Shown here: positions 1,325 to 18,800 of the stretch, piece after piece
Position numbering within the stretch: the first letter of the stretch is position 1
Layout of the letters: each line of letters begins with the position of its first letter
Notes under the pieces: model-generated
Told to the model about the DNA's origin: nothing
What the model saw: the letters and a program-made list of their open reading frames with translations, nothing else
Databases searched by the model: none
Origin: Desulfuromusa sp.
Lineage (GTDB): Bacteria > Desulfobacterota > Desulfuromonadia > Desulfuromonadales > Geopsychrobacteraceae
NCBI GenBank assembly: GCA_027858895.1
Contig: JAQIBX010000042.1
Span: 1 to 32,591 of the forward strand
DNA length: 32,591 nt
Direction: 5' to 3'
Position numbers and translations under genes: made by a program

Positions 1325-1371
1325 CCCATTAACACGGGTTTCAGTTGATCAGTATTTATAGGAGACATCGT

Positions 1372-3904: not shown

Positions 3905-4951
3905 GTGAAAAAGTTACTGGTACTGTTAATGGCAGCAATGATCCTTTCGTCCGGTAGCGCTTTTGCCAGCGCCTACACCGGTCCCGCGGTCCAAGCAAAA
4001 ATCGCTTCAGAAGAAATTGAAGGTGATTTCATGACTGTCTGGGCCAACAAATTCTCCGACCATATGCGCACGTGGTCTGACGGCAAAATCGATTTCACTG
4101 TCTACCCTTACGGCACTCTGGGAACCACTGGCGACATCAACGAACTGGCTCAGCTGGGCGTTGTTCAGTGTGTGTTCTCCGACTATGCCTGGATCAGTGC
4201 GTTTGTTCCCCAGGCCCAGGTTCTGGCCCTCAATTACCTGTTCCCGACTGAAAAAGTTCCTCAGACCCTAGACTGGATGATGAAGAACGGTGAATTCATG
4301 CCGCTAATGACCAAACACTTTGTCGACAACGGCCTAGTCCCAGCTGCCATCATGTTCGAAGGCTGGCAGTGGTTGTCAACAAAAGAGCCCGTCAAGTCCC
4401 TTAGCGACTTCAAAGGGACAAAAATTCGCGTTATGGGATCCAAGCTTCTGGTGGAAGACTACAAATCCTACGGCGCATCTCCAACCCCAATGAGCTATGG
4501 CGAAGTCTACAGTGGTCTGCAAATGGGTCTGATCGACGGCCAGGTCAACCCGCTGTTCGCAATTTACAGCATGAAATTCTTCGAAGTTCAAAACCACCTC
4601 ACCCAGCTCAAGAGCGAGCCGTTCCTGGGTATTCCAGCCTTCAATAAGGACTTCTTCGACGGCTTGACCAAAGAAGCCCAGGCTGAAATCATCAAATTCT
4701 GGCAGGATGCCATCATCCCAGCCGGCGAGTGGATCATCGCAAGAAATCAGAGCGATGGCGAAAAGATGAAGAAGGAAAAACCGTCCCTCAAGTTCCACAC
4801 CCTCGACGATGCTGCCGTGGCTCAGTTCAAAGCCCAGGCCGAAACCGTTTATTCCAAATATGTTGAGATCGGTGGCGAAGGTTCTCAGAAAATGCTCGAC
4901 ACCCTGCTCAAAGACGTTGCCAGCGCCAGCAAGGCTCTCGGCATCAAATAA
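3905..4951 (+). CDS. uehA: TRAP transporter substrate-binding protein, ectoine/hydroxyectoine type (TeaA/UehA-like)
   Basis: This is the periplasmic DctP-family binding protein of a TRAP transporter. Residues 1-23 form a signal peptide (MKKLLVLLMAAMILSSG then AFASA). The start is GTG 3905 behind a strong AAGGAGGA; the overlapping ATG at 3903 reads straight into a stop. Compared from memory with Halomonas TeaA, it keeps the EEIEGD box (the ligand glutamate of TeaA falls at Glu37), the KIRVM arginine (Arg175), the SPTPMSYGEVYSGLQ box and GLIDGQVNPLF (Asn215, Phe218). The pocket tryptophan of TeaA appears as Tyr198 and a pocket phenylalanine as Trp96, so the aromatic cage is kept with swaps. Together with DoeA downstream this supports ectoine or hydroxyectoine as ligand. 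Confidence 0.9.
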   Translation: MKKLLVLLMAAMILSSGSAFASAYTGPAVQAKIASEEIEGDFMTVWANKFSDHMRTWSDGKIDFTVYPYGTLGTTGDINELAQLGVVQCVFSDYAWISAFVPQAQVLALNYLFPTEKVPQTLDWMMKNGEFMPLMTKHFVDNGLVPAAIMFEGWQWLSTKEPVKSLSDFKGTKIRVMGSKLLVEDYKSYGASPTPMSYGEVYSGLQMGLIDGQVNPLFAIYSMKFFEVQNHLTQLKSEPFLGIPAFNKDFFDGLTKEAQAEIIKFWQDAIIPAGEWIIARNQSDGEKMKKEKPSLKFHTLDDAAVAQFKAQAETVYSKYVEIGGEGSQKMLDTLLKDVASASKALGIK

Positions 4952-4960
4952 TTATAACTT

Positions 4961-4988
4961 TGACTCGCGGCGTTTACGCCGCGAGTCA
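4961..4988 (+). repeat. Perfect 12-bp inverted repeat between TRAP binding-protein and permease genes
   Basis: TGACTCGCGGCG (4961-4972) and its exact reverse complement (4977-4988) flank a TTTA loop. It starts 9 bases after the binding-protein stop and has no T-run. Such hairpins between a binding-protein gene and its membrane subunits commonly protect the upstream mRNA or reduce read-through, giving more binding protein than permease. Confidence 0.7.
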
Positions 4989-5019
4989 TTCAACGTTCGA
5001 TTCACGGTGGAGATCGATC

Positions 5020-5658
5020 ATGACAGGTACGCAACCAGACCCACAAAAACCGTCTATCATCGAGAAAATGAATCCTGAAGCACATGTAGACACCAGCGGA
5101 ATGACCGTATTCCAGAAAATAAATCACTATATCGGCCTGATCGTCAACGGGATTGAAGTATCGGTTATGGTTTTTTGTGTTGCTGCACTCGCTGTCCTGT
5201 TAATTGCCAACGTCATCGCCAGAACCTTTTTTCAGAGCCTCTATTTCGCTGATGAAATTTCAACCTTTCTCGTTCTTATTATTACTTTCGTCGGCGTCAG
5301 CTACGGGGTCAGAAAAGCCCGACATATCCGTATGGGTGCGTTCCTCGACGCAATGCCGCCGAAAATGGAAAAAGCCTTCATCATTAGCATCTCACTGATC
5401 AGTGCAGTGGTTCTTGGAATCATGACCTGGGCTTCCTGGAAGTACCTGCTCAACGCCTTCGACCGCGGCCACATGAGCCAGGCCCTGCGAGTTCCCAAAT
5501 GGATCTTTTACGCCATCATTCCAGTCGGGTTCGGTCTGGCAGCGATTCAGTACCTGCGTACGATCATCAAAAACCTGACCGAGGATGAACCCTGGCAATC
5601 ACCAGACCAACAAAGTGAATATGAAGATGAAGATGAACAGATAGGAGGAGTGGAATAA
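5020..5658 (+). CDS. uehB: TRAP transporter small permease subunit (DctQ family)
   Basis: This is the four-helix small membrane subunit of the TRAP transporter, 212 residues from ATG 5020, which follows GGTGGAGA. A TTG at 4960 in the same frame overlaps the hairpin stem and is unlikely. Hydrophobic stretches fall at about residues 47-70 (VSVMVFCVAALAVLLIANVI), 80-100, 117-138 (AFIISISLISAVVLGIM) and 155-176. The YGVRKARHIRMGAFLDAMP segment after the second helix is typical of DctQ. The C-terminus is very acidic. It partners the binding protein upstream and the large subunit downstream, whose start overlaps this stop by one base (TAATG), so translation is probably coupled. Confidence 0.92.
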   Translation: MTGTQPDPQKPSIIEKMNPEAHVDTSGMTVFQKINHYIGLIVNGIEVSVMVFCVAALAVLLIANVIARTFFQSLYFADEISTFLVLIITFVGVSYGVRKARHIRMGAFLDAMPPKMEKAFIISISLISAVVLGIMTWASWKYLLNAFDRGHMSQALRVPKWIFYAIIPVGFGLAAIQYLRTIIKNLTEDEPWQSPDQQSEYEDEDEQIGGVE

Positions 5659-6947
5659 TGGGAATTTTCGGAATCAGCCTCGCATCAATGCTGCTCATTG
5701 GGTTTCCTTTCATGGTCACCCTGCTCGGCTCTATCATGCTCTACCTGTTCATCTACATGCCCGACTTGGCCCCGAAGATGCTTCTTATCATGGTACAGCA
5801 GGTCATTACCGGCGTCACCCCACCAGCCCTGGTTTGCGTACCGATGTTTATCCTCTCGGCCAGTATCATCACCTCGGGTGAATCGGCCGGACGCCTGATC
5901 CATATGCTCAAGGTTTTCGTCGGCCACCTCCCTGGGGGGCTACCGATCACCACCAGCGCCAGCTGTACCTTGTTCGGTGCGGTCTCCGGTTCGACCCAAG
6001 CAACCGTGGCCGCTATCGGCGGCACCATGCGCCCGATGCTGCTCGACGCTGGATATAAAAGTTCGTTTACCCTGGGACTGATCGTTAACGCCAGTGATAT
6101 CGCCTTTTTGATTCCCCCCAGTATCGGGTTTATCGTCTATGGGGTCGCCACCAGCACCTCAATCGGAACCCTGTTCCTCGCCGGAATTCTCCCGGGACTA
6201 ATGATCTTATTAATGTTCTCAGCCTACTGCTACTTCTACTCGAAGGCGAAAAAGATCCCAACCCTGCCGAAAGCAAGCTGGCTCGAGCGTAAACAAGCGA
6301 TCAGGGACGGACTGCCCGTTCTCGGATTCCCGATTATCATCATCGGCGGAATTTACACCGGTATTTTCAACCCAACAGAAGCAGCCGCCGCCTCAGTGGT
6401 ATACGCAATCATCCTGGAAAGCCTCATCTACAAGGCAATCACGTTTCCACGTCTGATCGATTCTTTCCTGCAGACCGGTGTCATCACCGGGGTGGTCTTT
6501 ATCCTCGTCGGGGCAGGACAGGCCTTTTCCTTCCTGATCGGCTTCCTGCAGTTGCCAGCTAAATTATTGCCACCATTGTTCGGCCCTGATCCATCCAGGT
6601 TGTGGGTTATTGCAATTATCGTCATGGTTTATTTTGTCGCCTGCATGTTCGTAGATCCGATCGTTGCGATTTTTGTGCTGAGCCCGATTTTTCAACCATA
6701 CGTCGTCAACGCAGGCGTTGACCCGATTCTGCTCGGCGTTCTCGTGACCCTGCAAGCAGCCATAGGATCAGCAACACCACCGTTCGGTTGCGATATCTTC
6801 ACCGCGCAACTGATATTCCGGCGGCCCTACCTGGAGGTCATCGGGCACTCACTTCCGTTTCTGCTGATCCTGATCCTGGCAACTATCTTGCTGGTTACAT
6901 TCCCGCAGATCGCCCTGTTCCTGCCGAACCTGGCACTCGGCGGCTAG
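5658..6947 (+). CDS. uehC: TRAP transporter large permease subunit (DctM family)
   Basis: This is the large membrane subunit that forms the Na+-coupled transport path of the TRAP system, 429 residues with about a dozen hydrophobic segments. DctM hallmarks are visible: FGAVSGSTQATVAAIGG near residues 110-126, IPPSIGFIVYGVATSTSIG near 150-170, the GIFNPTEAAAASVVYA motif near 235-250, and a late AAIGSATPPFGCDIF segment. The start overlaps the DctQ stop. Together with the TeaA-like binding protein it should import ectoine or hydroxyectoine at the cost of a sodium gradient. Confidence 0.94.
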   Translation: MGIFGISLASMLLIGFPFMVTLLGSIMLYLFIYMPDLAPKMLLIMVQQVITGVTPPALVCVPMFILSASIITSGESAGRLIHMLKVFVGHLPGGLPITTSASCTLFGAVSGSTQATVAAIGGTMRPMLLDAGYKSSFTLGLIVNASDIAFLIPPSIGFIVYGVATSTSIGTLFLAGILPGLMILLMFSAYCYFYSKAKKIPTLPKASWLERKQAIRDGLPVLGFPIIIIGGIYTGIFNPTEAAAASVVYAIILESLIYKAITFPRLIDSFLQTGVITGVVFILVGAGQAFSFLIGFLQLPAKLLPPLFGPDPSRLWVIAIIVMVYFVACMFVDPIVAIFVLSPIFQPYVVNAGVDPILLGVLVTLQAAIGSATPPFGCDIFTAQLIFRRPYLEVIGHSLPFLLILILATILLVTFPQIALFLPNLALGG

Positions 6948-7095: not shown

Positions 7096-8268
7096 ATGTT
7101 GACTTTTCCACGTGAGGAGTATCTGGCACGTATTGCTAAGACCAAACAACTAATGCTCAAAGAAGGTATTGACTGCCTACTTATCTCACAGCAGGCCAAT
7201 ATGAATTATCTGACCGGGTACGACGGCTGGAGTTTTTATGTCCATCAATGCGTTATCGTTTCTCTTGACCAGGAACAACCAATCTGGATTGGTCGGGGGA
7301 TGGACGCCAACGGTGCTCGTATTCTGTCATTTCTTGATGACAAGAATATCTATGAATACCCTGACTATATGGTTCACAACACCGTTGAGCACCCGATGCA
7401 TCACGTTGCTAAGATCATTGAGGAAAAAAGCTGGGCCAATAAAACCTTCGGTGTTGAAATGGATCAATTCTATTTCACTCACAGATCTTACCTTGAGCTC
7501 GAAACCAAACTGCCTAACGTCAAATTTGTCGATGCTAATGCTCTGGTCAACTGGGTTCGCGTCATTAAGTCCAAGCGCGAAATCGAGTTCATGAAAATCG
7601 CTGGTCAAATTTCTGAAAACGTCATGCAGACGGCTGTTGATTCGATCAATGTCGGAGTTCGTGAATGTGATGCTGCTGCTGAAATCGCCCGCGCTCAGTA
7701 TCGCGGCACTGAAGAACATTCCGGCGACTACCCGGCAATCGTTCCATTGATGATGGCCGGTGAAAAAACTAAAACACCTCACCTGACCTGGACTGAAAAA
7801 AAGTTTCAGACCGACGAAGCCGTACTCCTTGAACTGAGCGGTGTTTACCGTCACTACCACACACCAATCGCACGGACTATTTTTCTTGGACAGAATCCAC
7901 CGGCAATCATGACAGAAACAGCAGCCGTCGTCACCGAGGGTCTTGCTGCTGCTCTCGAAATCATCAAACCTGGAATTTTAGCTGAAGACGTCGAAGCCCG
8001 CTGGCGTGAAGCTATTGCTCACTCAAGTGTCGTCAAAGAATCACGTCTCGGTTACTCCATCGGTGTCAACTACCCACCCGACTGGGGTGAGCACACGATC
8101 AGCTTGCGTCCCGGCGACAAAACCATCATCGAACCAAACATGTGTCTACACCTGATCCCGGGGATCTGGTATGACAATGTCGGTTTTGAAATTGATGCGA
8201 GTATCGTCGTCACTGAAAATGGATATGAACAACTCTTCGATTATCCGATCGATCTGGTTCTCAAATAA
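7096..8268 (+). CDS. doeA: Ectoine hydrolase DoeA/EutD (M24 pita-bread fold)
   Basis: DoeA opens the ectoine ring to N-acetyl-2,4-diaminobutyrate; it is a creatinase/aminopeptidase-P relative that works without the M24 metals. The protein has 390 residues, near the roughly 400 of Halomonas DoeA. The N-terminal signature NYLTGYDGWSFYVHQ (37-51) is characteristic. The M24 metal ligands are gone: the usual aspartate pair region reads LLELSGVYRHYHTPIART (244-261). Glu246 aligns with the glutamate reported to form a covalent intermediate in the Halomonas enzyme (Glu255 there, recalled). Other landmarks are YSIGVNYPPDWGEHT and a C-terminal GFEIDASIVVTENG. The start follows AAAGGAG. It sits between the transporter and the EutABC-like genes, as expected for an uptake and breakdown locus. 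This gene is the firmest anchor for the pathway call. Confidence 0.93.
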   Translation: MLTFPREEYLARIAKTKQLMLKEGIDCLLISQQANMNYLTGYDGWSFYVHQCVIVSLDQEQPIWIGRGMDANGARILSFLDDKNIYEYPDYMVHNTVEHPMHHVAKIIEEKSWANKTFGVEMDQFYFTHRSYLELETKLPNVKFVDANALVNWVRVIKSKREIEFMKIAGQISENVMQTAVDSINVGVRECDAAAEIARAQYRGTEEHSGDYPAIVPLMMAGEKTKTPHLTWTEKKFQTDEAVLLELSGVYRHYHTPIARTIFLGQNPPAIMTETAAVVTEGLAAALEIIKPGILAEDVEARWREAIAHSSVVKESRLGYSIGVNYPPDWGEHTISLRPGDKTIIEPNMCLHLIPGIWYDNVGFEIDASIVVTENGYEQLFDYPIDLVLK

Positions 8269-8379: not shown

Positions 8380-9111
8380 ATGATTTATTCAATTAAAAAA
8401 GGGCAGGTCTGTCAGGGAGAACCTATTGGCATCCTCCTCTTGGATACGTGTGTTCCCTTCATCCCCGGAGACGTGGCCAATGCAACAACCTATGATTTCC
8501 CGGTTCGGTTCAAAAAGGTAGAAGGGTTTACTGTTGAAAAAGCGTTGAACCAGGAGCCAGAAGTCTATGACAGCCTGCTTGCAGCTGCCAGGGAACTCGT
8601 CACAGAAGGCGTTCGTGGATTAGCTGGAGACTGCGGTTTCATGGGTATTTTCCAGAACCGCTTAGCTGAAGATGTCGACGTTCCTGTATTTCTTTCAAGC
8701 ATGATTCAGATAGAATTAATTCTGCGCATGATTGGCGGAAAAAACAAGCTTGGTGTCGTCACAGCTGATTCAAGCAAGATTGGCCCAGAGATCCTCGAAG
8801 CCGTTGGGGTTACCAACAAAGATCGCCTCGTTTTCGGCGGACTGCAGGACAAACCTCATTTTATAGATTTTGCGATTAAAGAGATCGGCACTCTCGATAC
8901 CGATCTGGTTGTCCCGGAAATCATTAAAACAGCAAAAGACCTGGTTGCTTCCGATCAGGATATCAAAGCTATCCTGCTCGAATGCAGTCTATTGTCGCCT
9001 CACGCTCATGCAGTACAGCAGGCAGTCAATCTTCCAGTATTTGATTTCATCAGCCTGATTAACTACGCTTTTTCTGGAATCCAGACAAAAACATACACAG
9101 GCTTCATGTAA
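8380..9111 (+). CDS. Aspartate/glutamate racemase family protein (possible EutA counterpart)
   Basis: This 243-residue protein belongs to the Asp/Glu/hydantoin racemase and arylmalonate decarboxylase superfamily, which uses two cysteines as acid and base. Both candidate cysteines are visible: Cys85 in GDCGFMG and Cys202 in LLECSLLSP. The start ATG follows AAGGA. In hydroxyectoine degraders EutA belongs to this superfamily and lies next to eutB and eutC, and this gene directly precedes the EutB-like gene. It may therefore do the EutA job, which is not fully resolved in the literature. It could instead racemise diaminobutyrate or aspartate. I do not claim orthology with EutA, because its sequence resembles the broader family at least as well. 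Confidence 0.75.
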   Translation: MIYSIKKGQVCQGEPIGILLLDTCVPFIPGDVANATTYDFPVRFKKVEGFTVEKALNQEPEVYDSLLAAARELVTEGVRGLAGDCGFMGIFQNRLAEDVDVPVFLSSMIQIELILRMIGGKNKLGVVTADSSKIGPEILEAVGVTNKDRLVFGGLQDKPHFIDFAIKEIGTLDTDLVVPEIIKTAKDLVASDQDIKAILLECSLLSPHAHAVQQAVNLPVFDFISLINYAFSGIQTKTYTGFM

Positions 9112-9234: not shown

Positions 9235-10227
9235 ATGGTGACATTACCAACCCTGATCAATGTCTATCAGGCAGCTGAACGCATTCAACATGTAATCCGC
9301 AAAACACCTATTTTTGAAGCGCCGGAATTAAAGGAATTAAGCGGAGCGGCATCAATTCACTATAAAATGGAATGTCTGCAGCAGACAGGAGCGTTCAAGG
9401 TTCGTGGTGCGGCCAACAAAATTCTCAGTCTGACAGATGAGGAAAAGCAACACGGTGTGATTACCTTTTCCACCGGCAATCATGGTAAGGCCGTTGCCTA
9501 TGTTGCCGGACAAATGGGCATTCGTGCAGTTGTCTGTCTTTCAGAAAAAGTCCCAACATACCGGGCAGATCTGATTCGCAGCCTGGGTGCGGAGGTGGCT
9601 GTTCAAGGCAAGTCTCAGGATGAAGCGGAAGAGAACTACTACCGAATTTTAAAAGACGAGGGATTGGCCCCTGTAGTTCCTTTTGATGACCCAATGGTCA
9701 TTGCCGGACAAGGGACAATTACTCTCGAGATTCTGGAAAAGCTACCAGATACAGACATGCTGTTGGTCCCACTATCAGGTGGAGGTTTAGTATCCGGCAT
9801 GGCTTTGGTCGCTAAACAGATTAACCCCGCTATCCATATTGTCGCCATCTCGCTCGAACGTTCACCCGCAATGTATGAAAGCCTGAAAGCGGGGAAACCG
9901 GTTCAAGTCGAAGAAAAAGGGTCTTTAGCAGATTCGCTGTTAGGTGGCATCGGTGTAGAAAATCACTACAACCTCCCCCTGATTGACCGCTATGTCGATG
10001 AACATATCCTCGTATCGGAAGACGATATCAAAACCGGCATGTATTCGGCTTACAATTCACAGCAAATGATTATTGAAGGCGCTGCGGCAGTTGGCATTGG
10101 AGCTATCATCAACAAGAAGCTCGATGTGACTGGAAAAAATGTCGTTTCAATATTGAGTGGACGCAGTATCGACACCCGCAGATATCTGCAGGTAATTGCA
10201 GAGCAACAACGTGTAGGAGAAAAATGA
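9235..10227 (+). CDS. eutB: EutB-like PLP-dependent threonine dehydratase family protein
   Basis: This fold-type II PLP enzyme (330 residues) resembles catabolic threonine/serine ammonia-lyase. It shows the PLP lysine in GAFKVRGAANK (Lys55), the STGNHGKA motif (79-86) and the phosphate-binding SGGGLVSG loop (181-188). Two arginine/lysine-rich cofactor loops are ordinary. No C-terminal ACT regulatory domain is present, which fits a catabolic enzyme. Hydroxyectoine degraders carry EutB of this family with EutC and EutA, thought to deal with the hydroxyl group. The gene follows the racemase-family gene and its stop overlaps the EutC-like start. The ATG follows AAGGA. A plain threonine dehydratase is the alternative, but the neighbourhood favours EutB. 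Confidence 0.85.
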   Translation: MVTLPTLINVYQAAERIQHVIRKTPIFEAPELKELSGAASIHYKMECLQQTGAFKVRGAANKILSLTDEEKQHGVITFSTGNHGKAVAYVAGQMGIRAVVCLSEKVPTYRADLIRSLGAEVAVQGKSQDEAEENYYRILKDEGLAPVVPFDDPMVIAGQGTITLEILEKLPDTDMLLVPLSGGGLVSGMALVAKQINPAIHIVAISLERSPAMYESLKAGKPVQVEEKGSLADSLLGGIGVENHYNLPLIDRYVDEHILVSEDDIKTGMYSAYNSQQMIIEGAAAVGIGAIINKKLDVTGKNVVSILSGRSIDTRRYLQVIAEQQRVGEK

Positions 10228-11210
10228 TGATCCGTATACTGTCAGAAACAGAAATCAAACAACTCGCAAAGCTCGACCTCGATGTCATTGCCGCAATTGA
10301 ATCAGGTTTCAGCAAACTGGCTGAAGGCAATGCTACAGTTCCTCCGATCATGATGATTCCAGTTCCGGAAAAAGATGGTGAAGTTGACATCAAAAGTGCC
10401 TTCATCAAAGGGATCCCCAATCTGGCTGTCAAGGTTGCTTCTGGCTTTTTCGAGAATCCAAAGATCGGGCTTCCGTCCCAGAGTGGTCAGATGCTGGTCA
10501 TCAGTGCCGAAACCGGATTTTTGCAAGCGGTTCTTCTGGATAACGGTTACCTGACCCAGATTCGAACCGGAGCGGCAGGAGCCGTTGCAGCAAAATATCT
10601 TGCCCCTGAGGTTGTAGAAAATGTTGGCGTTATCGGCACTGGAGTACAAGCCCGTTTCCAAATGGAAGCTCTCTTTCTGGTACGGCCATTCAAAACCATC
10701 CGAATTTTCTCCCGCTACAGCGAAGAGGCTAAAGACGCATATGCCGAAGAAATGAGCGCCAAACTTGGCGTGAATGTCATCAAATGCGACTCTGTTGCTG
10801 AAGTCGTCAAAGAAAGTTCAGTTGTTGTAACCACCACCCCTTCAAGAGAAGGCTTCATCACCAAAGAGATGCTCCACCCTGGACTGCACATTACTGCCAT
10901 GGGAAGCGACACGGAAGAAAAGCAGGAGCTACATCCTGAAATTCTGGGCATGGCTGATGGCCTGTTTTGTGATCTACACAGTCAAAGTGAGCGTTTGGGT
11001 GAATTGCGCTCAGGCTATGAATCTGGTTCCATTTCGACAGCAACGACCGTGACTGAATTGGGAGAAATCATCAATAAGGTCAAACCAGGTCGCACAGACA
11101 AAGACCAGATCACCATCTGTGATCTAACCGGTGTTGGAGTTCAGGATACGATGATTGCTGTCAAACTTTATGACACTGCAGAAGAGAAAGATCTTGGTAT
11201 AAAAATCTGA
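10224..11210 (+). CDS. eutC: EutC-like ornithine cyclodeaminase/mu-crystallin family protein
   Basis: This 328-residue protein has the ornithine cyclodeaminase/mu-crystallin architecture: an N-terminal substrate-binding region with KVASGFFENP, the QIRTGAAGAVAAKYL segment and an NAD-binding Rossmann motif VIGTGVQARFQMEAL around residues 133-150. Family members act on cyclic imines or amino acids with NAD(P). In hydroxyectoine loci EutC is the partner of EutB. The start overlaps the eutB stop in ATGATGA; a second in-frame ATG at 10227 has slightly better spacing from AGGAGA, so the start could be one codon later. Overlap suggests coupled synthesis. The exact reaction of EutB/EutC on hydroxyectoine is unsettled. 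Confidence 0.85.
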   Translation: MMIRILSETEIKQLAKLDLDVIAAIESGFSKLAEGNATVPPIMMIPVPEKDGEVDIKSAFIKGIPNLAVKVASGFFENPKIGLPSQSGQMLVISAETGFLQAVLLDNGYLTQIRTGAAGAVAAKYLAPEVVENVGVIGTGVQARFQMEALFLVRPFKTIRIFSRYSEEAKDAYAEEMSAKLGVNVIKCDSVAEVVKESSVVVTTTPSREGFITKEMLHPGLHITAMGSDTEEKQELHPEILGMADGLFCDLHSQSERLGELRSGYESGSISTATTVTELGEIINKVKPGRTDKDQITICDLTGVGVQDTMIAVKLYDTAEEKDLGIKI

Positions 11211-11263
11211 TTTTCCTGCTTCAGCTATCGAGCCATCACAACTTATTACCCGATATGGCATCG

Positions 11264-11377: not shown

Positions 11378-11405
11378 TTGACTTGAAAGTGAAAATTGCT
11401 ACAAT
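11378..11405 (+). promoter_or_regulatory. Sigma-70-type promoter for the proline-racemase-family gene
   Basis: TTGACT (11378-11383) and TACAAT (11400-11405) are separated by 16 bases, and the gene start lies 60 bases after the -10 box. This is the best promoter-like match inside the catabolic locus. It also rules out a translation start upstream of the -10 box. Confidence 0.6.
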
Positions 11406-11464
11406 CTGCACACTGTGTCACTATTAAAACGCACGTTCATATAGTGAACACACGGGAGAGTGTC

Positions 11465-12478
11465 ATGGAATCAGGAAAAAACTTTAAGGAAAACAACCTT
11501 CGCGTCATTCAAAATTATTTCGGCAGCAACACCCCTGAAAAACTCCATATTGACAACATCACTTATGATGGTGATGATCATTTGATCACCTATACCGAAA
11601 TTGATATTCCTGGTGACAGTTTACTTGAGCAAATGGATTATATGGAAGAGAGCATGGACAACATTCGCTTACAGTTGCTTGGCGATGACCCAACCAACTG
11701 TAGCGACCTGATTGTTCCTCCAAAAGATCCACGTGCCGTTGCCGGTTACATCATTATGGAAACCATGGGTTATCCTCCATTCTCCGGCTCTAATACCTTG
11801 GCCGCTGGGTATTCACTGTTACAAAACGGCTTTGTTGAGCAAAAAGACGGAAAGCACAGTTTTTACATCGAGTGTGCAGCCGGGCTGTCAGAGATCACCT
11901 ACGAATCAATCAATGGTGAGATCAAAATGATCAGCATCACTGGGCAGGACGTTTACCTGGCACACGACGGCCTGGAACTGACCATCTGCGGCAAACAGGT
12001 CAAAGTACCAGTTGTTTACAGTGGCGGGTTCTACCTGATGATCCCAAGCAAAGAGATTCCAACCGAGTTGAAGCAGGAAAACTACGACGAATTCATCAAA
12101 ATCGGTAAAAAATCAGTCGATGATGCTCGTGCACTCTACTATCCCAAGCACCTGACCGTTGGTGATGTTGGCCCGATTCCTTTTGCCAATTTTATGGAAG
12201 ACAAGCAAGAAGCCGGTCATTATGTCGGCGCAACCTTCGTCTATCCCGATTGTATCTGCTACTGCCCGACCGGAACTGGTTCTTCAGCTCACACTCTGAT
12301 GCGCTACGTCGCCGGTGAAGTCAAAGTTGGTGATCGCGTCGAAGTTCAGTCCCCTATCGGCTCAACCATGTACATTGACATCCTCGGTGCGGATAAGCTC
12401 GAAGACCGCCCAAGACTTCAAGTCAGAATTAACGGTCTTCCAACTCCAAAAGAAGTAGGTATCCAGGCCATCGCCTAA
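11465..12478 (+). CDS. Proline racemase superfamily protein with Ser/Thr in place of both catalytic cysteines
   Basis: The protein (337 residues from ATG 11465, after GGGAGAG) has the length and fold signature of the proline racemase/hydroxyproline epimerase/3-hydroxyproline dehydratase superfamily. The first catalytic motif, normally (C/S)GH, reads PPFSGSNTLAAG with Ser107 and also Ser109 where histidine is usual. The second, normally DRSPCGTG, reads CYCPTGTGSS with Thr269 in place of cysteine and no aspartate. Cys-Cys pairs racemise, Cys-Thr pairs dehydrate; a Ser-Thr pair fits neither well-studied group. It lies between eutBC and the TfrAB-like genes, with its own promoter and a terminator, so a role in hydroxyectoine or diaminobutyrate-derived intermediates is plausible. 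Substrate and reaction are unknown. Confidence 0.8.
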   Translation: MESGKNFKENNLRVIQNYFGSNTPEKLHIDNITYDGDDHLITYTEIDIPGDSLLEQMDYMEESMDNIRLQLLGDDPTNCSDLIVPPKDPRAVAGYIIMETMGYPPFSGSNTLAAGYSLLQNGFVEQKDGKHSFYIECAAGLSEITYESINGEIKMISITGQDVYLAHDGLELTICGKQVKVPVVYSGGFYLMIPSKEIPTELKQENYDEFIKIGKKSVDDARALYYPKHLTVGDVGPIPFANFMEDKQEAGHYVGATFVYPDCICYCPTGTGSSAHTLMRYVAGEVKVGDRVEVQSPIGSTMYIDILGADKLEDRPRLQVRINGLPTPKEVGIQAIA

Positions 12479-12490
12479 TTAATTTTCTCC

Positions 12491-12556: not shown

Positions 12557-12637
12557 TAAGTTTCAGCCGCTTAAATCGGTCGTTGAGATTATAATATTTA
12601 GAAAACTGGTTATCATTTTTGCTCCGGGAGATTGTGA

Positions 12638-14320
12638 ATGAAGTTCACTGAAACAGACGTATTGGTGATCGGCTCAGGAGCTGCAGGTTTTTATGCGGCA
12701 ATCCGAGCAGCCGAATCCGGTCTGCGGGTCACCCTGTGGGAAAAAGGCCTTGCTGGCCGAAGTGGCGGTACCGTCAGTGGTGCTGGTCCATCGGCCTACG
12801 GTCCCTTTAGTGATCCGGAAGACTCAACCGACAGCCACTTCCGTAATACGGTTGAAGGCGGGTCTTACCTGAGCGATCAGCCTCTGGTTCGTGTCCTTGT
12901 CGAGGAAACACAGCACCGCATTCAGGAGTTGGAAGACTGGGGTATCCGCTTTGATAAAAACAGCGACGGCTCCTATGTAATTTACCTTGCAGGTGGTCAC
13001 AGTTACCCACGCGTTATGGCAATCAGTGACCGCGTTGGGCTGCAAATGTGCAAGGTTCTACGTACAAAACTTCACACTTTCAAAAATGTTACTTTTGGTG
13101 AAGACATGCTCGCAACCAAAATTATGGTCGAAGTTGGACGTGTCTGCGGTGCCGTCGGCGTTGATTTCCGCAATGGTGAAACAGTCAGCATGAACACCCC
13201 GTCCGTTGTTTTGGCAACAGGTGGTGTCGGCCAACTCTACCCGGTCACCAGTAACCCAATTCAAGTTACTGGCGACGGCATGGCGATCGCATATGAAGCA
13301 GGCGCAAACCTGCTCAATATGGAGCAGGTCCAATTCTTCCCATGTGGCCTGGTTCATCCACCTTCCCTGAAAGGTTTCATTCTGGGCATCCAGGAATGTG
13401 CCAAACTGTATAACAAAGACAACGAACGCTTCATGGAAAAATATGAGCCCGAAAAACTTGAGCTCACCACCCGTGACCGTCTGGCTCGCGCAATCCATTC
13501 AGAAATAACCGCTGGCCGCGGGACCGAGCACGGCGGTGTCTGGCTTGATGCAATCGACCTGGGCGATGACACCTACAAGAGCTTTATGCACGAAATTGAA
13601 GTCACTGCCGAACGTGGTTACGACTATCGCGAGAAACGTCTTGAAATTGCTCCATCTGTTCATTACTTCATGGGTGGTGTTGAGATCGATACCGACGCCA
13701 GTTCATCGGTCCCAGGCCTGTTTTCTGCCGGCGAATGCTCCGGTGGACTTCAGGGCGGTAACCGCCTCAGCGGTAACGCTCTGTCAGAGTTGCTGGTCTT
13801 CGGCTCGCGTGCCGGTGAGGCTGCTGTCAAACATGCCAAAAATACGACTCTTGCTTCCTGCGAAGAGCAGGGCAAAGCTGAAAAAGATCGAATTCTCGAG
13901 AGCCTCAATCGCCCTAAATCGGACATGACGCCGAATAAAGGCAAAAATCGACTACGTAAAATCATGGCTGATTACATGGGTGTTACCCGAACCGGTGAAG
14001 GCCTTGAAAAAGCGGTAAAAGAGATGCAGAAACTTAAGGAGCTATTGCCCACTATCTACGTTCAGGGGACAGCAGTCCAGTTCAACCAGAGTCTGCAATC
14101 TTACCTTGAGCTTGAAAAAATGGTGACAATCTCTCAAGCAATGATTGAATCAGCGATAATAAGAAAAGAGAGCCGTGGTGCACACTTCCGCGAAGACTAT
14201 CCAGAATGGGACACAGCCACTGCACCACAGTGTACCCTGGCCAGCCTCGAAGGCAGTGAGCCTGTCATCAGGACCAGACCGGTAAAGATGACGGAAATTC
14301 CGCCGGGACAATCGGCTTAA
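12638..14320 (+). CDS. Fumarate reductase/succinate dehydrogenase-type flavoprotein, TfrA-like
   Basis: This 560-residue FAD protein belongs to the SdhA/FrdA/NadB/TfrA group, and its length matches thiol:fumarate reductase subunit A of methanogens. The FAD Rossmann motif is VLVIGSGAAGFYAAIRAA (8-25). Where covalent FAD enzymes have a histidine, this one reads GRSGGTVSGAG, so FAD is probably noncovalent as in TfrA. The catalytic region reads ITAGRGTEHGGVWLD, and the C-terminal FAD segment SVHYFMGGVEID then GLFSAGECSGGLQGGNRLSG keeps the active-site histidine and arginine. It pairs with the Fe-S protein 22 bases downstream. No membrane anchor is encoded, so the complex should be soluble. It may reduce fumarate derived from aspartate, or another unsaturated acid of the pathway. 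The function within the locus is inferred. Confidence 0.85.
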   Translation: MKFTETDVLVIGSGAAGFYAAIRAAESGLRVTLWEKGLAGRSGGTVSGAGPSAYGPFSDPEDSTDSHFRNTVEGGSYLSDQPLVRVLVEETQHRIQELEDWGIRFDKNSDGSYVIYLAGGHSYPRVMAISDRVGLQMCKVLRTKLHTFKNVTFGEDMLATKIMVEVGRVCGAVGVDFRNGETVSMNTPSVVLATGGVGQLYPVTSNPIQVTGDGMAIAYEAGANLLNMEQVQFFPCGLVHPPSLKGFILGIQECAKLYNKDNERFMEKYEPEKLELTTRDRLARAIHSEITAGRGTEHGGVWLDAIDLGDDTYKSFMHEIEVTAERGYDYREKRLEIAPSVHYFMGGVEIDTDASSSVPGLFSAGECSGGLQGGNRLSGNALSELLVFGSRAGEAAVKHAKNTTLASCEEQGKAEKDRILESLNRPKSDMTPNKGKNRLRKIMADYMGVTRTGEGLEKAVKEMQKLKELLPTIYVQGTAVQFNQSLQSYLELEKMVTISQAMIESAIIRKESRGAHFREDYPEWDTATAPQCTLASLEGSEPVIRTRPVKMTEIPPGQSA

Positions 14321-14341
14321 TCAGAGATACAAGGTGATATC

Positions 14342-15973
14342 ATGACACAAACCTTTAAGGTCATTGTTGACCGCTATGATCCGGAAACCAAAAAGGCTTC
14401 TGCTCAGACATACGAGGTCGAGTTCATTCCCAGCCAGACAGTGCTGCAGACCCTGAACTTTATTCGTGATAACCTCGATGATAGCGTTTCGTTCCGGTCA
14501 TCCTGCCAAGGTGCCAAATGTGGAAGCTGCGCTGTTGCACTTAATGGCAAACCGGTTCTGGCCTGTAATACCATGATTGACGGCCAAGACATCACAATCA
14601 GCCCTCTGCCAAACTTCCCGGTTATTAACGATCTGGTCGTTGATCGTACAGAGTGCGAAGATGATTTTTTCAAGATGCTGGCGCAAACGGGATCTTGCGA
14701 AGGATCCTGCAATGGGCACGCTCACAAAGAGCCAGAAGCGGTCCTGTACGAATCTAAAATCAACTACGACAACCTGTCCCGTTGTCTCGGCTGTATGGTC
14801 TGCACCTCAGCTTGTCCGTACAACGCTCAGATGTCTGAGAATGGCCCGAATCCATCGATGCTCGTCAGTGTTATGAGCTCAGGGGTGCTAACCAAAAAGG
14901 ATGGACAACTGGCCTTCCCAATCGGCAAGAACATCGACTATTGCAGCCTTTGCCTGAATTGTTACACCGCCTGTCCTGCAGGTGTTCATCTGAACCGTGC
15001 CAATACCCAGAGCAAGGATGCCTACGTTCAGACCAAGGGACAGAAGCTCCGTGACCGTCTGCTTGGCCATGCTGAATTTGCTGATAAAGCAGCAACCTTA
15101 ACTCCTGGATTAAACAATGCTCTGGTCAAGAGTCCTCTGGTTCGTACAACCCTGGAAAAGATCCTGGGTATCAGCAGTCAGCCATCGATGGTCAAGTTTT
15201 CCAAGCCATTGACGACCCAGAGACCAGTTGCCAAGCAACCAAGTTCAATTGCCAAGAAACACAAGGTTGCCTTCTTTACCGGTTGCTATGCCCGCTACAA
15301 TGATACCGACGCTGGCCTGGACGCTATCACTGTTCTTGAAAAACTGGGGATTCAGGTTGAAGTTCCAGAGCAGTCCTGTTGTGGTCTGCCGCTTATCGGT
15401 AACGGCGACATGGCAACAGCTGAACAAAAAGCCCGCACCAACGTTGCTGCATTCAAGCCATGGGTTGATAAAGGCTACGATATCGTCACAACCTGTACCA
15501 GTTGCAGTCTGATGCTTAAAACTGAATACACAGAAGTGTTTAGGATCAAAGCAGCCGAGGGTCTGGCCGGTTGCACCTACGATCTGGCTGAATACATCAA
15601 TAAGCTGGTCGATAGTAATGAAATTGAGCTGAACCTGACCTCGATCCCAATGCAAACCGCCTATCATACTCCATGTCACCTGAAATCACAGAAGATCGGA
15701 TTACCGTTCATCGAACTGTTGAATAAGATCCCGGATTTTAAGATTGACGTCATGGACGCCAAGTGTTGTGGTCAATCGGGAAGTTACGGCTACAAAGCTG
15801 AGAAGTATCCGATCAGTGAAGCGGTCGGGAACGAACTGAAGGAATCAATAGAAAAACTCAAGCCGGAAATCGGACTGAGCGAATGTGGTCCATGTCAACT
15901 CCGGATGCATGATGTCTCAGGCCTGCCTGTTGTACATCCAGTATCGATTTTACGGCGTGCATTGAAGGAATAA
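14342..15973 (+). CDS. TfrB-like fusion: FrdB-type iron-sulfur domain plus HdrB-type CCG domains
   Basis: This 543-residue protein joins an FrdB/SdhB-like half to an HdrB/GlpC-like half, the architecture of methanogen TfrB. An N-terminal [2Fe-2S] ferredoxin domain uses Cys55, 60, 63 and 75. Two [4Fe-4S] sites follow: Cys148/151/154/158 and Cys201/204/207/211. The C-terminal half has two complete cysteine-rich CCG domains: Cys315, 346/347, 385/388 and Cys445, 475/476, 515/518, the pattern that binds noncubane clusters in HdrB. An extra pair, Cys119 and Cys123, is not part of these sites. It would carry electrons between the flavoprotein and a thiol/disulfide or other soluble partner. In methanogens the partner is CoM/CoB thiols, which bacteria lack, so the physiological electron partner is unknown. 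Confidence 0.88.
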   Translation: MTQTFKVIVDRYDPETKKASAQTYEVEFIPSQTVLQTLNFIRDNLDDSVSFRSSCQGAKCGSCAVALNGKPVLACNTMIDGQDITISPLPNFPVINDLVVDRTECEDDFFKMLAQTGSCEGSCNGHAHKEPEAVLYESKINYDNLSRCLGCMVCTSACPYNAQMSENGPNPSMLVSVMSSGVLTKKDGQLAFPIGKNIDYCSLCLNCYTACPAGVHLNRANTQSKDAYVQTKGQKLRDRLLGHAEFADKAATLTPGLNNALVKSPLVRTTLEKILGISSQPSMVKFSKPLTTQRPVAKQPSSIAKKHKVAFFTGCYARYNDTDAGLDAITVLEKLGIQVEVPEQSCCGLPLIGNGDMATAEQKARTNVAAFKPWVDKGYDIVTTCTSCSLMLKTEYTEVFRIKAAEGLAGCTYDLAEYINKLVDSNEIELNLTSIPMQTAYHTPCHLKSQKIGLPFIELLNKIPDFKIDVMDAKCCGQSGSYGYKAEKYPISEAVGNELKESIEKLKPEIGLSECGPCQLRMHDVSGLPVVHPVSILRRALKE

Positions 15974-16039
15974 GCTCATGACTGAGTGCCTAGTCGAAGT
16001 GTCAGATGGGGACTCAATCGCTTCATATGAAATGAATAA

Positions 16040-16059
16040 CCCCGCAGCAAGCTTCGGGG
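16040..16059 (+). repeat. Short GC hairpin after the TfrB-like gene
   Basis: CCCCG (16040-16044) pairs with CGGGG (16055-16059), 66 bases after the stop; only a few T bases follow. A 10-base palindrome TTCATATGAA (16022-16031) lies just upstream and could be an operator. Weak evidence for either. Confidence 0.3.
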
Positions 16060-16095
16060 AATTGAACCCTCTTTGAGATTAAAAACAGGTATTTA

Positions 16096-16124: not shown

Positions 16125-16163
16125 TAACCTGCAGAAACCGTCACCACAAGAAGGAGCTACACT

Positions 16164-17465
16164 ATGAAAGTCGTTAAATTCGGCGGCACATCTTTAGCCA
16201 GTGCAGACCAGATCAAAAAAGCAGTTGAAATCATTCAGGCTGATGAGCAAAGACAAGCTGTTGTGCTCTCCGCTCCGGGAAAACGTGACAGCCAGGATAT
16301 TAAAATAACAGACCTTTTGATTAACACCCATAAGGCAAAAACAGCAGGACAGAACTACCTTCCGACATTCACTAAAATCCGTGCCCGATTTGTCGAATTG
16401 GTTGAACTGCTCAATGTGACAGTCGACATTGAAGCAGAACTTGATTACATCCAAGAGAAAATCGAGCAAGGAACAACTCTCGATTTTGTTGAGTCTCGCG
16501 GAGAATACCTCAACAGTCTGGTTATGTCACAAGCCCTCGGTGCTGAATTTATCGATGCCGCAGAGGTGGTTCGTCTCACCGTCGACGGTCGTGTTGATCC
16601 CCAATCTTATGAACTGATCAACGAGCGCGTGACTAAAGTGACCGGTCGTTTTGTTGTCCCAGGTTTTTATGGAACCGGCCCGGATGGTGAGATCAAATCA
16701 TTCTCCCGTGGTGGCTCAGATATTACCGGTGCAATCGTCGCCCGTGGCATTAATGCTGAAGTCTACGAAAACTGGACCGATGTTTCAGGTATTCTCCAAG
16801 CTGACCCCCGTATCGTCTCTGAAGCACAACCGATTCCCGAAATCACTTACACTGAGGTTCGCGAACTGGCCTCCTGTGGCGCCAGCGTCTTCCATGAGGA
16901 GGCGATTGCCCCGGTCCGCGATGCAGGAATCCCGATCAATATCAAAAACACCAACAGCCCGACCGACAACGGCACCATGATCGTGCCGAAGCGCTCGACC
17001 GACAAGCAGCCGGTCGTCGGCGTCTCCGGCAAGAAGCCCTACCGGATTTTGCATGCCGAGAAGTTCATGCTGAACCGCTACCCGGAACTGCCCGGCCAGA
17101 TCAAGGACGCCCTGAGCCAGCAAAACCTGTTTGCCGAATTTGACATGAAAGGGTTCGACACCCTGGCAATGCTGGTCAACAGCAACAACGATTTTGACAC
17201 AACAGCAGCCAGCCAGTACATCAACACCAATACCGACGTTGATGATTGCAGTTTCGGCATGACCGTCGCCCTGGTCGGCATTGTTGGTGCCGGCCTGTCA
17301 AGTCAAACCGGCCTGCTCGGGCGCATGCTCAGCGCACTGGATCAGAACGGTATCGAAGTGCACAGTATCAGCTACGGCGGTTCACAAATGACGGCGCTCG
17401 TGACCGTCAACCTGGAAGACTATGAAAAGACCCTAAAAGTCCTGGTAGCACAAATGCAGAGTTGA
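16164..17465 (+). CDS. Aspartate kinase
   Basis: Aspartate kinase interconverts aspartate plus ATP with aspartyl phosphate plus ADP. The protein (433 residues) starts with VVKFGGTSLAS, has the SRGEYLNS substrate segment, FSRGGSDITGA and VYENWTDVSGI in the kinase domain (to about residue 270), and two ACT-type segments after 290 (VSGKKPYRILHAEKF; GIVGAGLSSQTGLLGRML). The ATG follows AAGAAGGAG. It lies inside the ectoine catabolic locus, 14 kb from the asd gene with which it shares an intermediate. In ectoine producers a special aspartokinase (Ask_Ect) accompanies ectABC, but no ectABC is here, so reverse operation to make ATP is worth considering. GC content is visibly higher around 16900-17110 than in the first 400 bases. 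Feedback control is not predictable by eye. Confidence 0.93.
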   Translation: MKVVKFGGTSLASADQIKKAVEIIQADEQRQAVVLSAPGKRDSQDIKITDLLINTHKAKTAGQNYLPTFTKIRARFVELVELLNVTVDIEAELDYIQEKIEQGTTLDFVESRGEYLNSLVMSQALGAEFIDAAEVVRLTVDGRVDPQSYELINERVTKVTGRFVVPGFYGTGPDGEIKSFSRGGSDITGAIVARGINAEVYENWTDVSGILQADPRIVSEAQPIPEITYTEVRELASCGASVFHEEAIAPVRDAGIPINIKNTNSPTDNGTMIVPKRSTDKQPVVGVSGKKPYRILHAEKFMLNRYPELPGQIKDALSQQNLFAEFDMKGFDTLAMLVNSNNDFDTTAASQYINTNTDVDDCSFGMTVALVGIVGAGLSSQTGLLGRMLSALDQNGIEVHSISYGGSQMTALVTVNLEDYEKTLKVLVAQMQS

Positions 17466-17630
17466 TTCCATAAAAATCAGCCTATTGAAAATCAACAAGT
17501 GGGCGATACATAGCGGCAGCTTGTTTTCCGATTTTCATAAAGATTGGGGCAAAACATCAGGCACCAGCCTCTGTGCCCCTGCGGTGGAACGATTGGGGAT
17601 AGATCCTCTTTTTCGGTGGAGACAACAACG
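17466..17630 (+). promoter_or_regulatory. Structured leader of the second M20 amidohydrolase gene
   Basis: GAAAATC (17487-17493) pairs with GATTTTC (17530-17536), and inside it AACAAG (17494-17499) pairs with CTTGTT (17520-17525), giving a long hairpin with a one-sided TTCC bulge. Further on, GGCAC and GTGCC around 17562-17575 can pair. Blocks ATAAAAATCAG, CAGCTTG/CGATTTTC and ACATCAGGCACCAGC also occur before the first M20 gene (2440-2618), in different order. The shared blocks suggest common regulation or a duplicated leader; this is inference. Confidence 0.35.
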
Positions 17631-18800
17631 GTGAACATCAAACAACTATTAACAGGCTGTCGTGCTGAGCTGATCGAACTTTACCGCGATTTTCATGCCC
17701 ATCCGGAATTGGGGTTCCAGGAATTCCGTACCCAGGACAAGGTCAGTACCTATCTGAGCGCGATCGGTCTGGAACCGCAGCAAATTGCCGGAACCGGTGT
17801 GGTTGCGGAACTGCGCGGATCCCGGCCGGGCCCAACCATCCTGTTGCGCAGCGATATGGACGCCTTGCCGATCACAGAAGAAACCGCTCTCCCCTTTGCC
17901 TCCCAGCATCCCGGGATCATGCATGCCTGCGGCCACGATGGCCACATGGCCATACTGCTAGTCACCGCCAAGCTTCTTAACAGCATGAGCGCAGAACTGC
18001 CCGGCACGGTCAAAATCCTGTTCCAACCAAACGAAGAAGATGCCGGGGCCTGGAAAGTTGTCGCGGAAGGGGTCATGACCGATCCCAAAGTCGATGTTGC
18101 CTTCGGTCTTCATCTCTGGTCACAGTGTCCCACGGGAACGATAGATATCGTCGATGGTCCACAGATGGCGGCCTCATACTATTTCGACCTGAGCATTAAA
18201 GGGCGCGGGGGACATGCTGGCTTCGCCCACGAATCGATTGATCCCATCTATATCTCCACACTCATAATACAGGCGGTTCAGGGAATTCAAACGCGGGAGG
18301 TCAACGCTCTCGACCCGGCCGTTATCATGTTTACCCGCATGAACGCCGGCAGCAGCGCTACCATTATCCCAGAGGAAGCCAAGCTTCAGGGATCGATCCG
18401 CTTTCTCTATTCAAACGGAAAGAAATTGTTCAAACGCTTTGAAAGTGTCGTCAAACAAATCTGCACAGCCTATTCGGCCAGTTATGAACTCAGCTTTAAA
18501 AAAGGCAATGATCTATTGACCAACGTTCCGGAAATCGCCGCCTGCGCTCGTGCTGCAGCGGCCGAGGTTGTTGGTCCTGAGAAGGTCACAACAGAAATAC
18601 GAACCATGGCAGGAGAGGATTTTTCCGACTATCTGGTCCACGCACCCGGAGCTTTTGCCTTTGTCGGTTGCCACAACCCGGCCAACGGTGTTTCTTACCC
18701 CCATCATCACCCCCGTTTCACGATTGACGAAGAGGCGCTGGCCATAGGTGTCGAACTGCACCTGCAGTGCGCTTCGAAATTTCTCAAGTGTGCGGGCTGA
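17631..18800 (+). CDS. Second M20 family amidohydrolase/deacetylase
   Basis: This M20D-type zinc amidohydrolase has 389 residues from GTG 17631, which follows GGTGGAGA; family sequence (RAELIELYRDFHAHPELGF) starts right after it, while a longer in-frame extension to 17544 reads nothing family-like. It has RSDMDALPIT, MHACGHDGH (Cys100, His102, Asp103, His105), FQPNEEDAG (Glu135, Glu136), GRGGHAGFAH in the lid domain, TMAGEDFSDY and YPHHHPRF near the end. It is clearly a paralogue of the enzyme at 2619 but not a recent duplicate. Placed at the end of the locus, it may deacetylate the alternative isomer or the hydroxylated form of N-acetyl-diaminobutyrate. Substrate inferred only from context. 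Confidence 0.85.
   Translation: MNIKQLLTGCRAELIELYRDFHAHPELGFQEFRTQDKVSTYLSAIGLEPQQIAGTGVVAELRGSRPGPTILLRSDMDALPITEETALPFASQHPGIMHACGHDGHMAILLVTAKLLNSMSAELPGTVKILFQPNEEDAGAWKVVAEGVMTDPKVDVAFGLHLWSQCPTGTIDIVDGPQMAASYYFDLSIKGRGGHAGFAHESIDPIYISTLIIQAVQGIQTREVNALDPAVIMFTRMNAGSSATIIPEEAKLQGSIRFLYSNGKKLFKRFESVVKQICTAYSASYELSFKKGNDLLTNVPEIAACARAAAAEVVGPEKVTTEIRTMAGEDFSDYLVHAPGAFAFVGCHNPANGVSYPHHHPRFTIDEEALAIGVELHLQCASKFLKCAG

Follow-up and report, generated by a model that had tools for sequence, protein, structure and literature searches.

A flavoprotein and iron-sulfur protein pair in an ectoine-type cluster

We analysed a contig of Desulfuromusa sp. (JAQIBX010000042.1, 32,591 nucleotides; its full length is referred to as the window) in which two adjoining genes, here designated tfrA and tfrB, are located within an ectoine-type catabolic cluster. 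tfrA encodes a flavin adenine dinucleotide (FAD) flavoprotein and tfrB an electron-transfer protein, and the two genes are separated by 21 bp on the + strand (Table 1). TfrA comprises an FAD_binding_2 domain, with the FAD domain starting at residue 7, and the fumarate-reductase C-terminal domain Succ_DH_flav_C. TfrB comprises a Fer2_3 domain, a 4Fe-4S dicluster region and two CCG stretches. Its ligand cysteines were located at residues 55/60/63/75 for the [2Fe-2S] cluster and at 148/151/154/158 and 201/204/207/211 for the [4Fe-4S] clusters, and both CCG motifs are complete (C-X30-CC-X37-CXXC at 315-388 and C-X29-CC-X38-CXXC at 445-518). Mean hydropathy exceeded 1.6 in no 19-residue segment of either protein, which indicates that there is no hydrophobic segment. 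No membrane anchor gene adjoins tfrAB, the flanking genes encoding a proline-racemase (ProR)-family protein and an aspartate kinase. The cysteines and the hydropathy agree with the initial annotation of this DNA, which had described a soluble pair of TfrAB-like architecture with a full cysteine set and no membrane anchor. It had also placed the pair within ectoine catabolism, and an ectoine-type cluster is seen around tfrAB.

The pair did not arise by chance: the best family E-values were 5.7e-150 for the flavoprotein and 7.5e-104 for the Fe-S protein, and tfrA orthologues 83% and 89% identical were found in two congeners. tfrAB is a real gene pair of a rare set of genomes, and is misfiled if named fumarate reductase. 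A promoter and terminator scan of positions 1-19600 gave no excess of sites over shuffled sequence (17 compared to 18.8 and 22 compared to 21.0), so that operon limits were not definable, and Rfam at gathering thresholds gave no match in the window.

The AlphaFold2 model of TfrA, built from a 35-row alignment, had a pLDDT (predicted local distance difference test) of 91.7. Its best solved fold was E. coli FrdA (1kf6_A; Z 55.8, root-mean-square deviation 1.9, 548 residues), and the match lists were filled by complex-II flavoproteins, so that a likeness to families outside these lists may have gone unseen. TfrA scored 500.5 bits against the TfrA equivalog PRK06263, below the cut-off of 718, as did its relative in Anaerolineales bacterium SuakinDeep_MAG45 of the Chloroflexota (G449; 491.7), compared to 788.3 and 808.2 for two methanogens. 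TfrB scored 243.7 bits against the TfrB equivalog PRK06259 (cut-off 385). Residues 143-542 of TfrB passed the GlpC model PRK11168 (347.8 bits, cut-off 278), although the architecture of the whole chain differs. The tfrB gene (14342-15973) may be auto-named glpC as its C-terminal part lies above this cut-off.

The pair was compared with three known systems. Methanogen TfrAB (PRK06263/PRK06259) likewise combines a FrdA-like flavoprotein with a FrdB-HdrB-type fusion bearing two CCG domains, and the window TfrA is 36% identical to Methanocorpusculum TfrA. The window pair differs in falling below both cut-offs, in having lost the fumarate pocket and in forming its own branch in the tree, although joining with methanogen TfrA was not rejected (see below). 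To our knowledge, coenzyme M and coenzyme B are not expected in bacteria. E. coli quinol:fumarate reductase FrdAB shares the flavoprotein fold and the Fer2_3 domain, but the window pair has no adjoining anchor gene, has added CCG domains and a changed pocket, and lacks the FAD-linking His. This His links FAD in FrdA-type flavoproteins; the window TfrA has Gly at the column where relatives carry it. GlpC, subunit C of anaerobic glycerol-3-phosphate dehydrogenase, which carries electrons to menaquinone, resembles TfrB over residues 143-542, whereas TfrB is fused to a [2Fe-2S] domain and its partner is a FrdA-type flavoprotein. Judged by sequence, TfrAB appears to be a variant inside the known FrdA/TfrA superfamily, with a likeness to methanogen TfrAB that is architectural only.

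The substrate pocket and phylogeny of TfrA

We aligned 122 homologues, after removal of four partial copies of already counted proteins. The fumarate-pocket His column held His in 110 of them, the other 12 having Phe, Tyr, Leu or Asn. The window TfrA carries FPCG in place of HPTG and ILGIQE in place of the loop T-E-x-x-RGEGG, both of which are kept in three methanogen TfrA. It has also lost the pocket Thr, though this is present in methanogen TfrA, and it lacks the second Arg of the proton path. Phe or Tyr at the pocket His and a shortened loop are common to the window TfrA and its seven nearest relatives. His and loop are gone likewise in all eight, namely the proteins of the window, the congeners G001 and G011 ('Deltaproteobacteria bacterium tcs-42'), G449, two further Chloroflexota genomes (G571 and G464), a Clostridiaceae genome and Chloroflexi CG23. 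The ILGIQ stretch is common to the four ectoine-linked proteins (window, G001, G011 and G449), and four of its five residues are seldom or never found in the other homologues outside the sister group. Arg279, the proton donor, and Arg376 were present in 122/122 homologues and His342 in 121/122. We take the aligned columns to be those of FrdA His232, Thr244, Glu245, Arg248, Arg287, His355 and Arg390, for which the PDB titles T234A and E245Q give partial backing.

Because the pocket His and the loop are lost and His342 and Arg376 are kept, a substrate with one carboxylate is expected: the window TfrA should bind one carboxylate and, at the far end, something other than a second carboxylate. The active site probably no longer accommodates fumarate, which is disfavoured as the substrate. 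TfrAB may be described as a putative soluble oxidoreductase with flavin and Fe-S centres that belongs to the FrdA/TfrA superfamily and would be adapted to a one-carboxylate substrate. A similar pocket is found in urocanate reductase, UrdA. The accessible part of its published description (PMC7921117) reports Tyr373 at the equivalent His, absence of the loop Glu, and presence of the one-carboxylate Arg/His and the proton-donor Arg. UrdA is stated there to have no fumarate activity, of which the Y373H variant gains a little. The window TfrA resembles UrdA in all of these residues. It differs in that UrdA has its own N-terminal flavin mononucleotide (FMN) domain, no such Pfam domain occurring in the window TfrA, and retains the second Arg of the proton path, whereas the window protein lacks this Arg and has an Fe-S partner subunit.

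Two trees were built, a quick one (122 rows) and a careful one (48 rows, from which the pocket stretch had been removed). The proteins of the window, tcs-42, G001 and G449 grouped together in both (100/100 in the careful tree), and G571 and G464 joined this four-row set (100/100), apart from NadB and methanogen TfrA. The eight-row pocket-altered group had a support of 87 in the quick tree, with the Clostridiaceae/CG23 pair unresolved in the careful tree, so that firm support is limited to the four- and six-row sets. The window set stands on its own branch in the tree. An approximately unbiased (AU) test did not reject joining the eight with methanogen TfrA (p 0.0955), and a common origin with TfrAB is possible. 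The pair thus did not fall into a clade of known function unrelated to the locus, an outcome that the initial annotation had named as evidence against its proposal. Identity with L-aspartate oxidase was considered and rejected: TfrA scored 327.4 bits against the NadB model TIGR00551 (cut-off 452.75), compared to 610.7 for the genome's own NadB (L002), which lies on another branch. The pocket-altered relatives suggest a wider set of non-fumarate TfrAB-like enzymes. Separately, two other FrdA-like genes, one of which encodes altered pocket residues, were seen in G008, a congener for which the doeA search gave no match; they lie within L042 481-18151 together with aconitase-, citrate-lyase- and pyruvate-formate-lyase-family genes.

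Gene neighbourhood and distribution of tfrAB

The genes around tfrAB in the window are listed in Table 1. Same-strand cluster genes lie upstream, aspartate kinase and a second M20 gene lie downstream, and unrelated gene kinds follow. Several of the ectoine gene names (DoeA, EutB, diaminobutyrate aminotransferase and aspartate kinase) are best matches below curated cut-offs. The Asp/Glu-racemase-family protein (8380..9111) had no solved relative by phmmer at E 0.001. A DoeC/Ssd-type aldehyde dehydrogenase was the best match of no window open reading frame (ORF) scanned. Aspartate semialdehyde would most simply be converted to aspartate by Asd and a reversed aspartate kinase, which would make ATP. 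Besides the cluster copy, the window's own genome (G000), G001 and G011 each encode another Asd that is 52-53% identical to it; in G001 the two copies lie ~2.6 kb apart.

Table 1. Genes of tfrAB and the surrounding cluster in the window (DABA, diaminobutyrate; PLP, pyridoxal phosphate; TRAP, tripartite ATP-independent periplasmic).
Feature	Position	Strand	Remarks
DABA aminotransferase (DoeD/Atf role)	83..1324	+	Near contig edge; 395.2 bits, cut-off 401.6
Aspartate-semialdehyde dehydrogenase Asd	1345..2397	+	Passes cut-off; one of two genome copies; start uncertain
M20 amidohydrolase, first copy	2619..3842	+	Candidate N-acetyl-DABA deacetylase
TRAP transporter DctP-DctQ-DctM	3905..6947	+	Presumed (hydroxy)ectoine uptake
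DoeA/EutD-like ectoine hydrolase	7096..8268	+	Best model TIGR02993, 453.3 bits, below cut-off of 613; next NF038259, 211.1
Asp/Glu-racemase-family protein (PRK07475)	8380..9111	+	No TIGR02990 EutA match listed
EutB-like PLP dehydratase	9235..10227	+	400.8 bits, cut-off 413
EutC-like ornithine-cyclodeaminase-family protein	10224..11210	+	PRK08291, passes cut-off
ProR (proline-racemase)-family protein	11396..12478	+	Candidate hydroxyectoine dehydratase; Ser130/Thr292; TTG 11396, real start perhaps ATG 11465
tfrA, TfrA-like FAD flavoprotein, 560 aa	12638..14320	+	FrdA fold; Phe234, Cys236, ILGIQE loop; Arg279/His342/Arg376 kept
tfrB, TfrB-like electron-transfer protein, 543 aa	14342..15973	+	FrdB-type [2Fe-2S] domain fused to GlpC-like region (two [4Fe-4S], two CCG)
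Aspartate kinase	16164..17465	+	Proposed reverse direction; 416.5 bits, cut-off 434; above subfamily cut-off of 208.7
M20 amidohydrolase, second copy	17544..18800	+	Kept in G011; not seen in G001 stretches fetched

Related loci were searched with up to 10 candidates scored per genome in the order, 3 (TfrB) and 2 (doeA) in the phylum and 4 in the Chloroflexota class, so that some orthologues may have been overlooked in these groups. GC-rich loci were read by tblastn, longest-frame ORF calls being misleading there. A close tfrA (83-89%) was found in two of 60 genomes (own included) besides the window's own, and in three of 136 genomes of the order (own included), all of which bear doeA; a fourth match, in G043, reached only 35%. 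TfrB was matched at E 1e-60 in 49/395 phylum genomes (own included), near full length only in G000 and G225 (31%) and otherwise in the GlpC-like part. A scan of named genomes, covering the best 80 of 553 relatives by two peptide patterns and thus liable to miss close orthologues without both, gave one further close tfrA, that of G449 (about 58-59%). Within the Chloroflexota class, tfrA was matched at E 1e-90 in 4/298 genomes, G449 included (G449 59%, G571 46%, G464 43%, G738 35%).

At the G011 locus, DABA aminotransferase, Asd, an Asp/Glu-racemase-family protein (44%), M20, TRAP, DoeA and the ProR-family protein are encoded together with TfrAB, aspartate kinase and the second M20; tfrB and the kinase gene are separated by an inserted alcohol-dehydrogenase-family gene. 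The G001 locus has the same set without this insertion, and the second M20 was not seen in the G001 stretches fetched. The order ProR-tfrA-tfrB-aspartate kinase is therefore common to three genomes, with one insertion in G011. A search of G001 and G011 for eutB gave no orthologue, the best match being a 509-aa frame at 36%, and eutC had no match there at E 1e-10. At both loci a 1000-1020-aa NAD-type glutamate dehydrogenase replaces eutA-eutB-eutC (L037 10259-13261 and L039 8837-11899), a position that fits 2-oxoglutarate regeneration for the DABA aminotransferase.

In G449, tfrA and tfrB lie on an 8.2-kb contig. They are preceded there by genes for an amino-acid-kinase-family protein (28% over residues 3-292 of the window aspartate kinase) and then for an EutA/arylmalonate-decarboxylase-family protein, whose scores of 107 and 111 bits both fall short of the cut-off. 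A gene for a 211-aa protein comes next, then small ORFs and finally the beginning of another tfrA. This second TfrA-like flavoprotein (L074 7460-8199; 43%) is cut by the contig end. Another G449 contig carries a DoeA-2-like gene (243.8 of 575 bits), ehuC, ehuD and ehuA above cut-offs, a DABA aminotransferase gene above the curated cut-off and 58% identical to that of the window, and asd (60%), which also scores above a curated cut-off and is cut by the contig end. It is plausible that the two contigs adjoin. Suakin Deep is a Red Sea brine. An MTTB-family (trimethylamine methyltransferase-like) protein was also seen near ectoine transporter genes (L172 2808-4391), and elsewhere in the genome of L172 MTTB-family proteins flank a EutC-like ornithine-cyclodeaminase (OCD)-family gene (L217 1805-3217 and 4223-5668).

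doeA was matched at E 1e-40 in 5/60 genomes, which were the three tfrAB carriers, G016 and G026. The chance of all three tfrA genomes falling among the five doeA genomes (60, own included) is 0.0003, but the three are congeners. Besides the window's own genome, doeA occurs among the 395 phylum genomes in G280 (56%), G395 (49% and 47%) and two others at 29-31%. The stretches fetched from G016, G026, G280 and G395 contain doeA, M20 and TRAP genes, with eutB in three of the four and eutC in one. asd, aspartate kinase, ProR and tfrAB were found in none of these doeA stretches, and the only DABA-aminotransferase-like match in them was one of 35% in G016. The initial annotation had reasoned that a wide spread of the pair without doeA would speak against its proposal. 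Close orthologues occurred only in the three doeA-bearing carriers among the order genomes and only in the window's own genome among the phylum genomes. Such a spread was not seen for the close orthologues. For the more distant Chloroflexota sisters (43-46%), no ectoine genes were found in the G571 and G464 stretches fetched, G464 having an aminotransferase 34% like the DABA enzyme. Next to pocket-altered sister TfrAB pairs (L210 4600-7900 and L211 10478-13625) lie either a gene with an FAD-oxidase C-terminal domain or genes for SelA-like proteins and class-III aminotransferases.

Candidate reactions of TfrAB

As one of two conceivable roles, the initial annotation had named reduction of a C=C bond formed by EutB-type dehydration, which would explain anaerobic dehydroxylation of hydroxyectoine. 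A role as C=C reductase in this dehydroxylation is compatible with everything tested, but the case for EutB as the partner is weakened: eutB and eutC orthologues were not found in two of the three deltaproteobacterial carriers, and it is the gene of the ProR-family protein that has been conserved directly upstream of tfrA, in G001 and G011 also. The window ProR has Ser130 and Thr292 at the catalytic positions, and Ser/Thr is likewise present in G001 and G011. The Ser/Thr cluster of 4K7G is described, in the accessible part of the source (PMC4113996), as functionally heterogeneous, containing 4-hydroxyproline epimerase and dehydratase, and the proline pathway as dehydration followed by an OCD-family reductase. 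The dehydratase of this cluster thus resembles the window ProR in its dyad and in that dehydration then reduction would act on a cyclic beta-hydroxy acid. 5-Hydroxyectoine resembles 3-hydroxyproline in that both are cyclic acids bearing their hydroxyl at the beta position relative to the carboxylate, and the OCD family is represented in ectoine clusters by EutC.

A similar sequence of steps has been proposed for the EutB-EutC route of Ruegeria pomeroyi. In a 2018 review (PMC5924519, as far as accessible), EutB forms 2-methyl-1,6-dihydropyrimidine-4-carboxylate and EutC reduces it, a scheme given as a proposal only; EutC is proposed to be NADH-dependent, whereas in the window the two steps would fall to a ProR-family protein and a flavin/Fe-S reductase. 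The available part of a second source (PMC8739950) states that EutD also opens hydroxyectoine to hydroxy-alpha-ADABA (ADABA, N-acetyl-diaminobutyrate), and that EutABC are required in R. pomeroyi, their precise activities being unknown. A 2026 paper (PMC13188858) reports eutD clusters in Thermodesulfobacteriota and Bacillota, and its main text contains none of the terms 'fumarate', 'succinate' and 'aspartate kinase'. No description of such a reductase pair in ectoine use was found among the titles and abstract openings listed in searches of open-licence literature.

Collectively, the candidate that we place first, tentatively and with the odds still somewhat against it, is that TfrAB serves as a 2-enoate reductase in a presumably oxygen-free use of hydroxyectoine, its substrate being a dehydrated intermediate with the ring either intact or opened. 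The main argument for this is that G001 and G011 have the ProR-family protein and TfrAB and that no EutC was found in them. The ProR-family protein (in the window also EutB) would dehydrate a beta-hydroxy acid, either 5-hydroxyectoine or ring-opened hydroxy-ADABA or hydroxy-DABA, leaving a C=C bond beside the carboxylate; the ring form would be the dihydropyrimidine carboxylate named above. TfrA would hold the carboxylate by His342 and Arg376, with hydride passing from FAD to the beta carbon and the alpha carbon being protonated via Arg279, and would release ectoine or (acetyl-)DABA. Electrons may enter from a donor docking at the CCG domains of TfrB and pass through its clusters to the FAD. 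The reduction may be an electron sink for NADPH and NADH from Asd and glutamate dehydrogenase, while aspartate kinase would make ATP. In none of the four carriers did a dsrA score above its curated cut-off, which we count in favour of this proposal.

A number of observations weigh against it. EutB and EutC are present in the window, where TfrAB would be redundant, and since the sisters in G571 and G464 lack ectoine neighbours, loss of the pocket is by itself no pointer to ectoine. The window ProR scored only 99 bits against the curated dehydratase model (cut-off 550), and the 4K7G cluster to which it is likened also holds epimerases. Its second-best match, 4K8L, is also Ser/Thr in the alignment. 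4K8L is grouped under the 4-hydroxyproline epimerases in the part of PMC4113996 that is accessible. The dyad would thus permit dehydration and does not prove a dehydratase. The ProR-family protein accompanies tfrAB in three of the four carriers; an orthologue is missing from G449, where the ProR-family proteins are Cys/Cys types. Hydroxyectoine use by the carrier strains is itself a prediction. Finally, Asd, an aspartate-kinase-type protein and a DABA aminotransferase accompany tfrAB in 4/4 carriers (over two contigs in G449), and this co-occurrence with aspartate-branch genes supports an oxidoreductase of the DABA-to-aspartate branch as much as a hydroxyectoine reductase.

Such a branch enzyme, which is possible though doubtful, would oxidise or reduce an intermediate of amino-acid type close to diaminobutyrate or aspartate semialdehyde, and might be a flavin dehydrogenase delivering electrons to menaquinone via the GlpC-like half. 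These three proteins are the most constant partners of tfrAB, the C-terminal half of TfrB lies above the GlpC cut-off, and the superfamily includes L-aspartate oxidase. However, the genome's L-aspartate oxidase is on another branch, the aligned NadB-branch relatives keep the pocket His, and the aminotransferase, Asd and aspartate kinase leave no obvious gap between DABA and aspartate. It is less probable, and in our judgement unlikely, that TfrAB is an accessory reductase for an unrelated 2-enoate, merely carried with the cluster. The sister lineages adjoin other gene kinds, as this would predict, but the conserved ProR-tfrA-tfrB-aspartate kinase order and the recurrence with ectoine genes in another phylum argue against it. 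Least probable of all is a soluble fumarate reductase, in which ectoine-derived aspartate would be converted to fumarate and then by TfrAB to succinate, as a sink for Asd-made NADPH: the methanogen-like architecture and FrdA fold, the Asd and aspartate-kinase-type proteins of all carriers and an aspartase above cut-off in G001 fit this idea from the initial annotation, but the pocket His, Thr and T-E-x-x-R loop kept by methanogen TfrA are lost, no aspartase passes the cut-off in G000 or G011 (best 497.4 and 484.2 of 681.2 bits, which may be fumarase), making one of three deltaproteobacterial carriers, and G000 already has an SdhA/FrdA-type flavoprotein.

If TfrAB acts as a hydroxyectoine-linked 2-enoate reductase, a broader scheme can be envisaged, which we regard as speculative and on balance doubtful. 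In this oxygen-independent fermentation, the ProR-family dehydratase and TfrAB would remove the hydroxyl, with hydroxyectoine as the electron acceptor, and ectoine would be oxidised via Asd and reversed aspartate kinase with substrate-level formation of ATP. Parts of the module would have been passed between deltaproteobacteria and brine-pool Chloroflexota. The observed pocket and architecture call for caution in annotating such pairs as fumarate reductase or GlpC. Removal of the hydroxyl from hydroxyectoine is unsettled even in aerobes, and the tfrAB loci make the question testable with two purified enzymes. If true, our proposal would extend the FrdA/TfrA superfamily by a branch that does not act on fumarate, and would give an account of how anaerobes use a major marine osmolyte.

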